Below are positions 11,119 to 23,791 of a stretch of 28,133 nucleotides of DNA, in pieces. The DNA lies in IMG/VR virus record IMGVR_UViG_3300031278_000009, positions 1 through 28,133 of that record; one strand, written 5' to 3'. The DNA comes from a virus. Position 1 is the first letter of the stretch; each line of letters begins with the position of its first letter. Below the pieces are notes generated by a model that was not told the DNA's origin, did no database searches, and was given only the letters and a program-made list of their open reading frames with translations. Made by a program: the position numbers and the translations under genes.

Positions 11119-11394
11119 ATGTCACAAAAGAAAGCTGAGATTACCTATCATTGCGAATGTATCGAGTGTGGCTACGAAATGGACAGCGAAAAACATTGCA
11201 ATGACCTGAAATGCCCCGAATGCGGAGGACAAATGCGGAGAAAAGAACGGCCGGGGCCGGGGCAAAATTCGAGAGGATTTATTTCAGCGGCGAAACAATT
11301 GGCTCAAAAGGAAGGAACTACAGTTACAGAGGCACTAAAAAAAGTCAGAAGGCAAAATCCGCAGCTCTATGAGGATTTCAGGGAGAAAATATGA
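11119..11394 (+). CDS. zinc-ribbon protein with a scaffold-like C-terminal motif
   Basis: The 91-aa product has CECIECGYEM (12-21) and CPECGGQMRR (32-41), two CxxC pairs of a zinc ribbon. A Pro/Gly linker leads to a helical tail (53-91). The tail shares a pattern with the last ~45 residues of the neighbouring protease/scaffold: GF....A+Q.A, TxA.K, P.LYE. I count about 12 identities in 38 aligned positions. The TGA overlaps the protease ATG (ATGA). It is probably a capsid assembly or maturation accessory. It may bind what the scaffold tail binds. Confidence 0.6.
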   Translation: MSQKKAEITYHCECIECGYEMDSEKHCNDLKCPECGGQMRRKERPGPGQNSRGFISAAKQLAQKEGTTVTEALKKVRRQNPQLYEDFREKI

Positions 11395-12710
11395 TTAACC
11401 CGATTATCTCACAAATCCAAAAAGAAATCTGGATGATGGAGCAGCGGGCAATGGCGGCCCTTGTGGCAAAGCTGTTCAATATAGATGCCGATGTATTGGC
11501 GTCCCTGATGAAGATAGAAAACCAGGAGAACAACGCGGAGATGCAGATAAATGACAATACCGCCATAATAAATATACACGGGATATTGATGAAGAACCCG
11601 CCGAGCTGGCTGGCGTGGTTCGGAATTGAAACGACCGATTACAATCAAATCAGACGGCAATTGGCGGATGCCATCGGCAAAATGGAAGTGCAGTCGATAC
11701 TGCTGCATATTGATTCGCCGGGGGGGACGGTTGCGGGAACATCGGAAACAGCAGATGCAATCGCTGCGGCAGGAAAGGTCAAACCAGTCATGGCAGAGAT
11801 AGAGGACCTCGGGGCATCAGGGGCGTATTACCTTGCATCTCAGGCAAAATCAATCACCGCCAATCTTAATGCCGAGGTCGGGGCGATAGGGGTATTTACG
11901 GTCTATGACGATTATTCGAAGGCGGCGGAGATGGCGGGAATTAAAACTATTGTCATACGCAGCGGTGAGCATAAAGGGATGGGAGTAATCGCGGCCCCGA
12001 TAACAGATGAGCAGATTGCCGCAGTGCAGGATGTGGTAAACGGGATGGCTGAAAACTTCATTAAAGCGGTAAGCTCGGGCAGAAATATGAGCATCGAAGC
12101 GGTCCGCACACTGGCGGATGGCCGGGTGTTTCTGGCGGCGGATGCGAAAAATAACGGGCTTATCGATAGCGTAATAAAATCAGCAAAAAACAGTAATGCT
12201 AATATGAAGGAGAATAATATGACTGACGAGGAAATTAAGGCCGCAGCAGATGCTGCTGAGGCACAAAAGCAGGCCCTCGGCCTTGCCGAGAGGCAGGCAG
12301 AGCTGGAAACGGCACGCAGCCAGGCAGGGGCTGATGAGAAAACCCGGCTTAAAGACCTTGAGGCTGCCTTCCCGAATGAACTGCAGTTTATAATGGACCA
12401 GTTCAAAAAGGGCAATTCTGTTGAAAAGGCAAAGGTCGAATTCTGTGATGTGCTTACAAAACGGCTCGCCGAATCCGAAACGGAAAAGAAAAAACTACAG
12501 GACAAGGTTAACGCTAACCCGAGCGGTGCAGATCCGATTCACAACACCGCAGAAGGCGGAAGCCAGCAAAGCGGATTTATGGAGATGGCAAGGCAGCGGG
12601 CGAAAGATGATAAGTGCTCGATAACGGATGCGATGAAAAGAACCCAAAAGGAAAGTCCGGAACTTTATGAAGAATACATAAAAAATGCCCGGCAGCAGAA
12701 AGTGGCATAA
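11391..12710 (+). CDS. S49-family capsid maturation protease, lambda gpC-like
   Basis: The 439-aa product matches lambda gpC in length as I remember it. NIHGILMKNP is the N-terminal strand, HIDSPGGTVAG (106-116) the oxyanion region, and DLGASGAYYLAS (139-150) carries the nucleophile Ser143. SGEHKGMG (191-198) carries the general base Lys195. This Ser/Lys dyad peptidase (SppA/ClpP fold) processes head proteins in the prohead. Residues from about 277 are Ala/Glu/Lys-rich and coiled-coil, i.e. a fused scaffold domain with its own internal start (see the nested entry). The start overlaps the zinc-ribbon stop. Confidence 0.93.
   Translation: MINPIISQIQKEIWMMEQRAMAALVAKLFNIDADVLASLMKIENQENNAEMQINDNTAIINIHGILMKNPPSWLAWFGIETTDYNQIRRQLADAIGKMEVQSILLHIDSPGGTVAGTSETADAIAAAGKVKPVMAEIEDLGASGAYYLASQAKSITANLNAEVGAIGVFTVYDDYSKAAEMAGIKTIVIRSGEHKGMGVIAAPITDEQIAAVQDVVNGMAENFIKAVSSGRNMSIEAVRTLADGRVFLAADAKNNGLIDSVIKSAKNSNANMKENNMTDEEIKAAADAAEAQKQALGLAERQAELETARSQAGADEKTRLKDLEAAFPNELQFIMDQFKKGNSVEKAKVEFCDVLTKRLAESETEKKKLQDKVNANPSGADPIHNTAEGGSQQSGFMEMARQRAKDDKCSITDAMKRTQKESPELYEEYIKNARQQKVA
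12219..12710 (+). CDS. nested in-frame scaffold protein, lambda Nu3-like
   Basis: Inside the protease gene, ATG 12219 (codon 277, in frame) is preceded by a perfect AAGGAG with a 6-nt spacer, better than most gene starts in the window. The 163-aa product begins MTDEEIKAAADAAEAQKQ. It has a long helical Ala/Glu/Lys/Gln-rich body (to about 100), then a polar linker, then a C-terminal helix motif GF.EMARQRA...ITDAMK...PELYEEY. This copies the lambda C/Nu3 arrangement, in which the scaffold is made from an internal start and also as the protease's C-terminal domain. The C-terminal motif is likely the capsid-binding end. Confidence 0.75.
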   Translation: MTDEEIKAAADAAEAQKQALGLAERQAELETARSQAGADEKTRLKDLEAAFPNELQFIMDQFKKGNSVEKAKVEFCDVLTKRLAESETEKKKLQDKVNANPSGADPIHNTAEGGSQQSGFMEMARQRAKDDKCSITDAMKRTQKESPELYEEYIKNARQQKVA

Positions 12711-20250: not shown

Positions 20251-21162
20251 ATGCTGAGTCAAAAACAAGTAATACAGGCGAAAATTGAAGCGGAAAAAGG
20301 CACGGCGGAATCAATGGGCTTTACCGACATTTTGTGCTACGAGCCGAAAATTGATGATACAAGCCCGTTCGACAAGAGACCGGCGCCCGGCCAATTTCTC
20401 GGACCGGCCGTGGCGGGGGTCATCTTAGAAAAGACCGGAGTGTTTACAGGAGAGGTTGAGCTACGGGGAAATGCCTCCGGCGGTTGTGATGCGGGATTGG
20501 CAATACTGCTGCAATGCTGCGGGCTGGCAAAGACCGACGAAGTCTATCAGGTCACAAGCACAGAGGCAAATCACAAGACCTGTACCATGTTCGGATTTAT
20601 TGATGGAATGGAAAAATTAATTTACGGCGTGATGGGCAATGTTACCTTCGAGGGAGAAGTCGGCAAAAAGATAATGTGTAATTACGATATGCCGGGTATC
20701 TGGAGCCCGCCTACGGATGTGGATCTGCCGACACCATCTTACGGAACGGCAAAACCGTTAATCTTCGCCGGTGGAACATTTAAGATAGCAACAGTAGCCA
20801 AGAAAATCAGCAAATTTACCCTGAATATGGGCAATATTGTTATTTTAAGATCTGATGCAAATGCAGCTGGCGGAATAGCCCATGCGATGATAACCAATTT
20901 TGAGCCGATTTTCTCCTGCGATCTCGAATCGGAACTGGTGGCTACAGACGACCATTATGGTAAGAAACTGGCCGGCACGGAAGTGTCCATTGAGATAATG
21001 GCAAAATCAGCAACTGATAAGGCCACATTCGCCATTCCGAAATTCCAGTATACCGGGATTGGCCAGGGAGACCGTGAAGGGCAGGCAACATTCGATATAA
21101 CTGGACAATGCAATAAAGATTCAGGCGATGACAATGTGAGTATTACCTTTGCGGCGGCGTGA
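20251..21162 (+). CDS. major tail tube protein, gpV-position
   Basis: The 303-aa product follows an AAAGGAG site. It opens KQVIQAKIEAEKGTAESMGF with early ILCYEPKIDD, then shows repeated beta-strand pairs. VFTGEVELRGNAS is the typical 'x-x-t-x-x-x-E-l-r-g' strand of tube proteins. A Cys-rich LAILLQCCGLAK helix follows and EGQATFDITGQCNKDSGDD ends it. Location between the terminator and chaperone genes fits the tube role. The last codons and stop run into a heptameric repeat. Confidence 0.75.
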   Translation: MLSQKQVIQAKIEAEKGTAESMGFTDILCYEPKIDDTSPFDKRPAPGQFLGPAVAGVILEKTGVFTGEVELRGNASGGCDAGLAILLQCCGLAKTDEVYQVTSTEANHKTCTMFGFIDGMEKLIYGVMGNVTFEGEVGKKIMCNYDMPGIWSPPTDVDLPTPSYGTAKPLIFAGGTFKIATVAKKISKFTLNMGNIVILRSDANAAGGIAHAMITNFEPIFSCDLESELVATDDHYGKKLAGTEVSIEIMAKSATDKATFAIPKFQYTGIGQGDREGQATFDITGQCNKDSGDDNVSITFAAA

Positions 21163-21265: not shown

Positions 21266-21481
21266 ATGGAAACAAGCAAAGAAATGATTCGAAAGGCGAT
21301 AATGAAAAATCGAGGTGGGCATGAAACGGCCACCGATGAGCAGATTATGACGCTATGGAACTCGCTGATGCCCGATACGCAAAAACAATATCTGGAATCA
21401 ATAAAAGTCAGAAGTCAGAAGTCAGAAGGTAAAAAGGAGAAAGAAGATGCCGTTAGCAACGAATCCAAACGCAACATATAA
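21266..21481 (+). CDS. 71-aa protein between tail tube and chaperone, unknown
   Basis: The ATG follows AAAAGGAA. Residues 1-47 are helical (SKEMIRKAIMKN and DEQIMTLWNSLMPDTQKQYL). Residues 47-54 (KVRSQKSEG) are encoded by a heptameric repeat, and the C-terminal KEKEDAVSNESKRNI overlaps the next gene by 35 bp. The repeat may have extended an originally shorter protein. No family recognised. Confidence 0.5.
   Translation: METSKEMIRKAIMKNRGGHETATDEQIMTLWNSLMPDTQKQYLESIKVRSQKSEGKKEKEDAVSNESKRNI
21403..21430 (+). repeat. heptameric repeat in the 21266-21481 gene (4 units)
   Basis: AAAAGTC, AGAAGTC, AGAAGTC, AGAAGGT. It uses the same words as the repeat inside the small terminase gene and immediately precedes the ribosome site (AAAAGGAG) of the tail chaperone gene. 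Confidence 0.85.
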
Positions 21482-21905
21482 AATAGTGCTTAGTACGGAC
21501 ACATATTTACCAGAAGAGGAGCGGCCTGTATTTATTTTCCGGTATCTCAGCGCGACAGAGTGGCAGCAGATAACAAAATTGAGTGATAAGTTTGACCAAC
21601 TGTCCAATACAGAGAAAATGCTTAATCTGGCGTTTGAAGTAATTGAAAAAATTATGGTTGGCTGGGAAAAGATGATTATGCCGGACGGCAAAAAAATACC
21701 GTTTGATTTGGCGAAACTGCAATCGATGGTTACTCTGCAGGAAGCTACGGAATTGATGCAGGCGGCAATTTCACAGCGGCCGAATATCGACGATAAAAAA
21801 AAATTCACCTTGCCGTTAGAATACAATATGGACAGCTCAGCCTCTGCAAAAACTGCAAAGGCCAAGAGAAATGTAAACATAAACCGACACAAAAAACACC
21901 GTTAA
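21447..21905 (+). CDS. tail assembly chaperone, gpG-like (0 frame)
   Basis: The 152-aa product lies between tail tube and tape measure genes, the invariant place of the gpG chaperone. It opens with a beta-rich part (YKIVLSTDTYLPEEERPVFIFRY), continues with SATEWQQITKLSDKF, and has a helical body up to about 113. The sequence then enters AAA AAA AAA (21795-21803). After this run the 0 frame reads only a short, low-complexity Lys/Asn/His tail to the stop, as expected for the non-shifted product. Gp G-type chaperones coat the tape measure during tail assembly. Confidence 0.7.
   Translation: MPLATNPNATYKIVLSTDTYLPEEERPVFIFRYLSATEWQQITKLSDKFDQLSNTEKMLNLAFEVIEKIMVGWEKMIMPDGKKIPFDLAKLQSMVTLQEATELMQAAISQRPNIDDKKKFTLPLEYNMDSSASAKTAKAKRNVNINRHKKHR
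21795..21803 (+). promoter_or_regulatory. A9 slippery site for a programmed -1 ribosomal frameshift
   Basis: Nine A in the 0-frame phase GAT AAA AAA AAA TTC contain the slippery heptamer A AAA AAA. After a -1 slip the frame is open from here through ATG 21905 to 22159, with no stop. I read every codon across 21797-21907 to confirm this. Confidence 0.75.
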
Positions 21906-22159
21906 TGTTCGATTGTAAAGAATGCGATGGATCGGGATGTAGCGCTTGTAACTATATCGGCAATTTGAGGATAACCGAATGCCCTCTGGATTATATAACG
22001 AGCGATGTATGGCAGGTGATTAAAAGTGCAGAACTTTACAAAAAGGGCCTGCCCGTTGTAGGCACATGCCAACTGGACCAGGCACAGAACTTTATAGAGG
22101 CATGCAGGTTTATCTGGGCAGAACAGAATTTCTGGAAGAATAAATTGAAAATCTTCTAA
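21803..22159 (+). CDS. T-domain of the gpGT-like chaperone, Cys-rich, made by -1 frameshift
   Basis: Read in the -1 frame this adds about 118 residues to the gpG-like protein. The first third has two cysteine clusters, CKNCKGQEKCKHKP and CKECDGSGCSACNYIG, the latter with the CxxCxGxG form of DnaJ zinc repeats. The rest, ITECPLDYITSDVWQ and SAELYKKGLPVVG, LDQAQNFIEACRFIWAEQN, has the short helical form of the gpT domain that binds tail tube protein. ATG 21905 (TAATG overlap) could start a separate 84-aa protein, but it has no ribosome site and would lose the first cysteine cluster, so frameshift expression is favoured. Confidence 0.7.
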   Translation: MHLAVRIQYGQLSLCKNCKGQEKCKHKPTQKTPLMFDCKECDGSGCSACNYIGNLRITECPLDYITSDVWQVIKSAELYKKGLPVVGTCQLDQAQNFIEACRFIWAEQNFWKNKLKIF

Positions 22160-22177
22160 CTATGAACGGATAGAATA

Positions 22178-23791
22178 ATGGCACAAAGCGTAGATATTTT
22201 GATTAAAGCCAGAGACCAGGCCTCGAAGAAGTTTAGCATTGTTGGTGCCAGCGCCACAATTATGGGCAAGACCCTGAAGGGCGTCGGGAATATGATGAAA
22301 ACCGCCTTTGCCGCAGCATTTCGAGCCGCCAAATATGCCGTAATGGGTTTAGCAGCTGCATTTTCTTATTGTACTTACGCTGCTATAAAACAGGAGGCGG
22401 CAGAGATTGAGCTGGCAAGTGCACTAAAAATGGCCGGCGAATACAGTGAGGAGCTTATTCAAAAAATGAAGAAACAGGCGGCTGAGATACAGGCGGCAAC
22501 CGTGTATGGTGATGAATATGTATTAACTTTGATGCGAATAGCAATGAGTCAGGGTGTGGCGGCTGATAAGGCAGCCGAGGCGGCTAAGGCGGCCATTGCA
22601 TTATATGAAGGATTTGGCGGTGGGCGTGGTAAGCCTGAAATTTTTATGCGTTATTATATCGATGCCATTCGAGGAACGGGCAGCTCGCTGGAAAGTTATG
22701 TGGGAGAGCTTCGAAAGGCAAAAACCGAGGAGGAAAGGCATAAAATTTTACAGGATGCCTTGGCAAGAGGCTGGGATGTAGCGAAATCAAAGACTGAATC
22801 CGCAGGCGGCGCTCTAAAGCAGATGAAAAATAAATTAGGCGATATTGCCGAAGCGATTGGTCGACCGCTTTTGCCGGCTATCGCTAAATCTTCGACAGCA
22901 ATCACAAAATGGGCAGAGGAAAACGAAGCAAGTATATCCTACTGGGCGAATAAAACCTATTCCTATGTAACCTTTGTAAAAGATGTATTTTTCGATTTCA
23001 TTAATTTTATGAAGGAAGATTGGCGAACCGGCATAAGCTTTGTATTTGACTCATTTCTTAAATTGCTCAAGACCACTTTTGATTCCGCGGTTATGTTGGC
23101 TATCGCCGGAGGAAGAGGGATATGGAAGGGTGTAAAAATAGGAATATTTGGAGGGAAAGAAGCTCAAATTGATAAATTAACTGAACAAAGATATTGGAAA
23201 GAACGAACATTAGGGCCTATGACTGCGGCAGAAGTAGCGGCTTATGAAGCAATACCTTTGAAAGAAAGACCTTTTTATAAGGAAAAATATAAAGAAGTCA
23301 GCGCTGAATTTCTTAAACAACAAACCAAAAGTATTCTCGGAGAAACTCTTAGTGTTGTAACTGATTCTTTCCAAGAGACTTTTGCGGAAATTTTGAAGGA
23401 TATGCCCGCTGATATGCGCAAGACATATGAGAAATCCCAGGTGAAACTTGCAAAAAGACTTGAAGCACTTGGTATGCCGCCAGGCAAAGGCACTGCCGTT
23501 GCTGCCGGTGAAACCGGTGCTCCTACTATTTTTGATATGCTCAAAGATTCTATTCAAAGAGCCGTCTCCACAATAAAACGACCGGGTTTGGCGCCGCGAG
23601 AGGCGGGGCTTCTGACAATGTTTCCCGGTGGACACATGGACTATCAGCAGCAGCTTGTAAACTATGCCAAAGAACAAACGACCATACAGAGAAAATTCAT
23701 AATGTATCAGGAAAAATTACTTAAATACGCAGAAGAATTAAATCGCAAGGTACAACAGGGGACACCTTTGAGGGCAGTGGATCTGGGATAA
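22178..23791 (+). CDS. tape measure protein (short)
   Basis: The 537-aa product is helical. It opens VDILIKARDQASKKFSIVGA, a classic tape-measure N-terminus. A hydrophobic Ala-rich segment (about 42-70) follows, then LESYVGELRKAKTEEER and SAGGALKQMKNKLGDIAEAIG, the family's 'kn-l-g-d-l-a-x-x-i-G' motif, then PLLPAIAKSSTAITKWAEEN. The second half holds charged helices. At about 0.15 nm per residue of extended helix the tail would be roughly 80 nm. It sets tail length and later takes part in DNA entry. The part around 22.9-23.4 kb is AT-richer. Confidence 0.85.
   Translation: MAQSVDILIKARDQASKKFSIVGASATIMGKTLKGVGNMMKTAFAAAFRAAKYAVMGLAAAFSYCTYAAIKQEAAEIELASALKMAGEYSEELIQKMKKQAAEIQAATVYGDEYVLTLMRIAMSQGVAADKAAEAAKAAIALYEGFGGGRGKPEIFMRYYIDAIRGTGSSLESYVGELRKAKTEEERHKILQDALARGWDVAKSKTESAGGALKQMKNKLGDIAEAIGRPLLPAIAKSSTAITKWAEENEASISYWANKTYSYVTFVKDVFFDFINFMKEDWRTGISFVFDSFLKLLKTTFDSAVMLAIAGGRGIWKGVKIGIFGGKEAQIDKLTEQRYWKERTLGPMTAAEVAAYEAIPLKERPFYKEKYKEVSAEFLKQQTKSILGETLSVVTDSFQETFAEILKDMPADMRKTYEKSQVKLAKRLEALGMPPGKGTAVAAGETGAPTIFDMLKDSIQRAVSTIKRPGLAPREAGLLTMFPGGHMDYQQQLVNYAKEQTTIQRKFIMYQEKLLKYAEELNRKVQQGTPLRAVDLG

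Follow-up and report, generated by a model that had tools for sequence, protein, structure and literature searches.

Gene order and slip site at the locus

We analysed a window of 28,133 bases, that is, the whole stretch of viral DNA at positions 1 to 28,133 of IMG/VR virus record IMGVR_UViG_3300031278_000009. In this window a probable chaperone locus is flanked by a tail protein gene and a tape measure gene, in the order tail protein, G, GT and tape measure, with the following features.

20251..21162, + strand: probable tail-tube subunit, the tail protein upstream of G, preceding the chaperone genes (PHROG 290, minor tail protein, E 5.8e-10)
21447..21905, + strand: G, probable tail assembly chaperone, the 152-aa product of the 0 frame (Phage_TAC_4; PHROG 313 in relatives; BFVD)
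21794..21796, + strand: TAA stop of the -1 frame directly 5' of the heptamer, read from the sequence (a -1 stop is found there in 32 of 78 relatives)
21797..21803, + strand: slippery heptamer A_AAA_AAA, in phase, inside a run of nine A and conserved in relatives (see below)
21803..22159, + strand: T, the 118-aa -1-frame extension (family alignment of relatives; -1 codon periodicity in the overlap)
22178..23791, + strand: tape measure protein (PHROG 1272, E 2.6e-05, and other tape-measure families)

The initial annotation had placed the run of nine A in the correct phase for slippage on A AAA AAA and had read the -1 frame as stop-free to 22159, and both readings hold. The run occupies 21795-21803 and the 0-frame codons across it are GAT AAA AAA AAA TTC, while the -1 frame opens after the TAA at 21794-21796 and runs from the slip site up to a TAA at 22157-22159. 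A slip there would join 119 residues of G to the 118 of T in a GT fusion of 237 aa. Further downstream, ATG 21905 overlaps the 0-frame stop of G (TAATG). Before this ATG the -1 frame contains no ATG, GTG or TTG, and no Shine-Dalgarno-like sequence was found there, so that the first cysteine cluster of T could be made only through slippage or by initiation at a rare start codon, for example ATT.

The assignment of G as a chaperone draws on several comparisons. Its match to Pfam Phage_TAC_4 has an E of 0.0074, below the family cut-off, and PHROG 313 (tail assembly chaperone) was matched by 5 of 27 0-frame proteins from relatives. The AF2 model of G (pLDDT 81, with low confidence past the slip site) matches chaperone models in BFVD. 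On the other side of the locus, a long ORF lies directly 3' of the -1 frame in all 69 relatives with enough sequence. Seven of the ten downstream ORFs scanned match tape-measure families, the weakest being that of L016 (E 1.5e-5), and the three others (L012, L023 and L107) gave no tape-measure match. The N-terminus V.V.ARD.AS is present in the downstream ORFs of L023 and L107 and in the downstream gene of the window, as in other members, and that of L012 is similar to it.

Because the best match of the terminase is to a Planctomycetota genome (44% identity) and identity is at most 35% in the other of the two phyla sampled, Planctomycetota are probably the host group of this phage. Downstream of the terminase in the Planctomycetota prophage that gave this match (G290), no recognisable member of the T family was found.

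Three further observations concern other ORFs of the window. A 71-aa ORF at 21266-21481 overlaps the start of G, and sequences similar to it, of the form ATDeqIm.lWnSL....QkqYLesik, precede G in at least 20 relatives as counted with a rough pattern; the ORF may be a conserved small gene of the tail module. A small cysteine-rich protein (11119-11394) and the adjacent protease-like protein (11391-12710) resemble each other over about 40 aa at their C-termini (local score 89; shuffled sequences reach 49 at most), perhaps a shared capsid-targeting or scaffold segment. Finally, an 83-aa ORF at 1808-2059 contains the in-frame tandem repeat LGKFAPISKKKAEEI.

Collection of relatives

Searched as a single sequence against viral contigs and phage records, the -1 frame of the window gave no relatives. 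With other members as queries, tblastn gave no convincing match among phage and plasmid records, and searching viral contigs with the major-tail and tape-measure sequences brought nothing. The first collection was made with the DNA pattern C..C.G.GC..C(10)CP in viral contigs, which yielded 103 stretches, about two thirds of which encode clear relatives. About 30 matches were excluded by eye as apparently unrelated (another cysteine-rich phage family, DNA polymerase III or low-complexity frames). Another set of phage proteins, apparently without relation to the first, was retrieved by this pattern too; its form is C..C.......V.d.C..C.G.GC..C..G......CP.C (L008, L010, L011, L014, L033, L046, L047, L053, L059, L060, L062, L080 and L091).

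The consensus of the T family reads KKIRLAVALQYG.ICK.CkG..kCkd.Ps...P...CpgCgGkGCeeC...G...it.CPle.it.dvwevi..aelyekGLPPvaGG.LDQ. and includes a signature that served as an independent search motif:

22046..22081, + strand: GLPVVGTCQLDQ, the window's version of the family signature GLPPVAGGxLDQ

A search with KGLPPV gave 37 loci in viral contigs and, in a genome scan, 3 loci, of which two lie in Planctomycetota MAGs and the third in a MAG carrying the label Alphaproteobacteria. In 392 Planctomycetota genomes, a profile search added 4 loci at E below 1e-9, and the same profile run on 299 genomes of the third MAG's phylum recovered the seed alone. Weak genome matches at about positions 31-61 of the profile were set aside, as most of them, judged by sequence, look like PheRS-alpha and other knuckle proteins. 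In all, 84 distinct relatives had upstream sequence, and 78 of these made up the aligned set used for counting.

Conservation of the predicted frameshift

Conservation of the slippery run, proposed by the initial annotation as a check, is clear: 82 of the 84 distinct relatives carry an in-phase heptamer where the -1 frame opens. Since the collection step for the 78 counted members itself required a heptamer (56 AAAAAAA, 18 AAAAAAC, 2 AAAAAAG, 1 GGGAAAC and 1 GGGAAAA), the members left out were inspected separately. Four of them carry CCCTTTT in phase (L084), GGGAAAA (L150), A7 (L151) and A6C (L152), and L104 and L153 have no clear heptamer at this place; L068 and L070 are cut off by contig ends. 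For background, of about 8,240 in-phase positions in the upstream G genes, 7 carry such a heptamer.

The position of the 0-frame stop varies from 0 to 112 codons past the slip, while the -1 frame stays anchored to it. Within the overlap, pairwise differences at positions 1, 2 and 3 of the -1 codons number 1671, 1539 and 2510. The third position of a -1 codon coincides with the second of a 0-frame codon, and the -1 frame is therefore the frame under selection. We looked among the members for a conserved downstream RNA stimulator and found none. Shine-Dalgarno-like 4-mers are enriched 5' of the heptamer (32 of 78 members, against a background of 16%), which Glu-Asp codons may explain.

These results have to be weighed against two other ways of making the -1-frame product. 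T could belong to a second, separate gene starting at ATG 21905 by termination-reinitiation at TAATG, its product being an 84-aa protein with the second cysteine cluster and C60 only. The overlap of this ATG with the 0-frame stop of the window speaks for such an arrangement, as does a -1-frame ATG or GTG within 25 nt of the 0-frame stop in 28 of 78 members, but only 3 of these 28 have a Shine-Dalgarno-like sequence, no ribosome site precedes ATG 21905, and the position of the start is not conserved. Moreover, in 51 of the 78 members the -1 frame reaches its first cysteine without passing a start codon. The initial annotation had singled out the stretch before ATG 21905 as the place where a fusion could fail, through lack of conservation or through stops; relatives keep this stretch and its three conserved cysteines in the -1 frame, without interruption. 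We consider two separate genes very unlikely.

Equally improbable in our estimation is that the -1 product arises by slippage of the polymerase on the A run rather than of the ribosome. Polymerase slippage is possible on long A runs, and 46 of 78 members, the window included, have nine A. However, 12 members have only six A, two have GGGAAAN and L084 has CCCTTTT, so that what is conserved is the X_XXY_YYZ phase and not the length of the run. Because the heptamers vary and some runs have only six A, this variety argues for ribosomal slippage generally, although members with nine A could use both. The data thus support a programmed -1 ribosomal frameshift at this locus, the slipping event itself being deduced from the conserved slip site.

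The cysteine-rich T domain

The conserved cysteines of T fall in three places in the window.

21845..21880, + strand: cluster A, CKNCKGQEKCKH, with C15, C18 and C24 of T (Cys in 75, 76 and 77, respectively, of the 78 members)
21914..21949, + strand: cluster B, CKECDGSGCSAC, with C38, C41, C46 and C49 of T (Cys in 77 of 78 members; missing in L129)
21980..21985, + strand: conserved CP pair with C60 (codon 21980-21982), probably the fourth ligand of site A (Cys in all 78 members; kept in L129)

Both clusters described in the initial annotation are present, but together the two motifs hold seven of the eight conserved cysteines, the eighth being in the CP pair. As the annotation had anticipated in asking for their conservation, each of the eight columns is a cysteine in 75-78 of the 78 aligned members; for C38, C41, C46, C49 and C60, which were part of the first search pattern, this conservation is partly due to selection. 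C15, C18 and C24 lay outside that pattern, and none of the eight was selected for in the set collected with KGLPPV.

A natural variant of T bears on how these residues may be grouped. L129 (2501-2809) lacks exactly C38-C49 and keeps C15, C18, C24 and C60. Because the inner four are absent as a block, the alignment suggests two separable four-cysteine metal sites in T. The ligand sets are probably C15, C18, C24 and C60 on the one hand and C38, C41, C46 and C49 on the other, a pairing read from one natural deletion, and each site probably holds one zinc ion. Conserved four-cysteine ligand sets of this kind would fit a structural zinc-binding protein.

The AF2 model of the -1 domain alone is confident (pLDDT 87.5, pTM 0.74). 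In the predicted layout, an N-terminal helix would be followed by the two four-cysteine sites and then by two main helices carrying GLPPVAGGxLDQ. Searches of the model against PDB and BFVD returned no match at E below 0.1, and the -1 domain had no real match in Pfam or NCBIfam. PHROGs gave weak local matches, with phrog_25876 matching over about 30 residues (best E 3e-4). The cysteine module had been called unusual, and the domain indeed belongs to no family of the curated libraries searched. To our knowledge, lambda gpT is without such cysteine clusters.

The label "DnaJ-like" fared differently. A true DnaJ-family zinc domain, taken from a cellular chaperone and binding unfolded tail clients, would account for the CxxCxGxG spelling common to both, and there are weak matches that point the same way: Pfam DnaJ at E 0.027 in one member and, for the T profile against PDB, BSD2 (E 0.026), anti-TRAP (E 1.1) and DnaJ 1exk (E 1.3), with anti-TRAP also the top PDB fold match of the T model (E 1.1). 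Against this, the -1 frame of the window and the family consensus have one CxxCxGxG repeat where the DnaJ cysteine-rich domain has four, no J domain was detected when both the G and the T frame were scanned with Pfam, and the best PDB matches of the T profile are to PheRS-alpha (E 8e-5 and 4e-4), which scores better than DnaJ. Neither profile nor fold comparison gave significant similarity between T and the DnaJ cysteine-rich domain. We find a DnaJ origin unlikely, if slightly less so than the two alternatives to ribosomal slippage, and describe the cysteine region of T from its sequence as a zinc-knuckle module whose ancestry is unproven.

Proposed function and significance

Conservation of the slip site, the substitutions in the -1 frame and the downstream tape-measure ORFs together indicate a tail chaperone of the G/GT type. 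With high confidence we read the locus as encoding, for a long-tailed phage, the G/GT pair of tail-assembly chaperones, with T as a distinct cysteine-rich domain. The tail-chaperone identity and conserved G/GT frameshift proposed at the outset are thereby upheld by the chaperone matches, the heptamers and the tape-measure gene downstream. Most ribosomes would make the 152-aa G protein, and a minority would slip one base back at A_AAA_AAA and make the 237-aa GT fusion. In lambda, the tube protein is the binding partner of the T domain, and the tape measure that of G (PMC5009743). By analogy, G would coat the tape measure protein and T would recruit the tail-tube subunit; judging from its position, the T domain should have the same role as lambda T. 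The cysteines would most likely act by stabilising the fold of T or by shaping how it contacts the tube protein. That the T domain of tail chaperones has an evolutionarily distinct type with two zinc ions, whose recruitment of the tube protein requires metal binding (or redox loss of the metal), making tail assembly zinc-dependent in these phages, is a bolder proposal that we advance only tentatively, judging it somewhat more likely to be wrong than right.

The T domain is a new family within a known, conserved phage mechanism, unlisted in the libraries searched (Pfam, NCBIfam and PHROGs). In the open-access literature we found no report of zinc or cysteines in frameshifted tail chaperones. 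Annotation that proceeds gene by gene will probably split the family or overlook it, since T is encoded in the -1 frame. The combined signature of slip site, eight cysteines and GLPPVAGGxLDQ can serve to recognise tail chaperones in phages of Planctomycetota and of other little-studied hosts. Furthermore, T is compact and confidently modelled, with probable metal sites, and makes a good target for studying the transfer of tube subunits from GT to the tape measure; L129 provides a ready-made natural deletion bearing on the two predicted sites.

Comparison with known systems

With the DnaJ cysteine-rich domain, BSD2 and anti-TRAP, T has in common a knuckle of the CxxCxGxG type and two probable zinc sites built from eight cysteines, and it differs from DnaJ in the number of motifs and in having no J domain. 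The best local match to cluster B is the knuckle of the PheRS alpha chain (4p71, 2rhq), spelled CxxCxGxGCxxCxxxG, but only about 30 residues align, and protein and context are unrelated.

The extensions of the DUF1799 family (PF08809) and the related loci L002/L003 resemble T in having a slip site (AAAAAAC or GGGAAAC), a KKL..AA..W start and a length of the same class; unlike T, they have no cysteine clusters and carry the signature TQW...GLDY. The homology to DUF1799 expected from this common start at the slip site was not supported (hhalign probability 0.35%, E 0.17; no Pfam match). Because profile comparison shows no relation between the whole -1 domain and DUF1799, the T domain may equally well have been replaced as have received an insertion, and the suggestion that the chaperone had acquired a cysteine element is unproven.

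A known parallel in organisation is lambda gpG/gpGT (PMC5009743), which has the same gene order, a -1 frameshift close to the 3' end of G, an extended product made in minor amount (predicted here) and a G-type chaperone upstream of the tape measure. Contrary to lambda, the slip site in T-family phages is mostly A6-A7, and the T extension is of a different family, with eight conserved cysteines.
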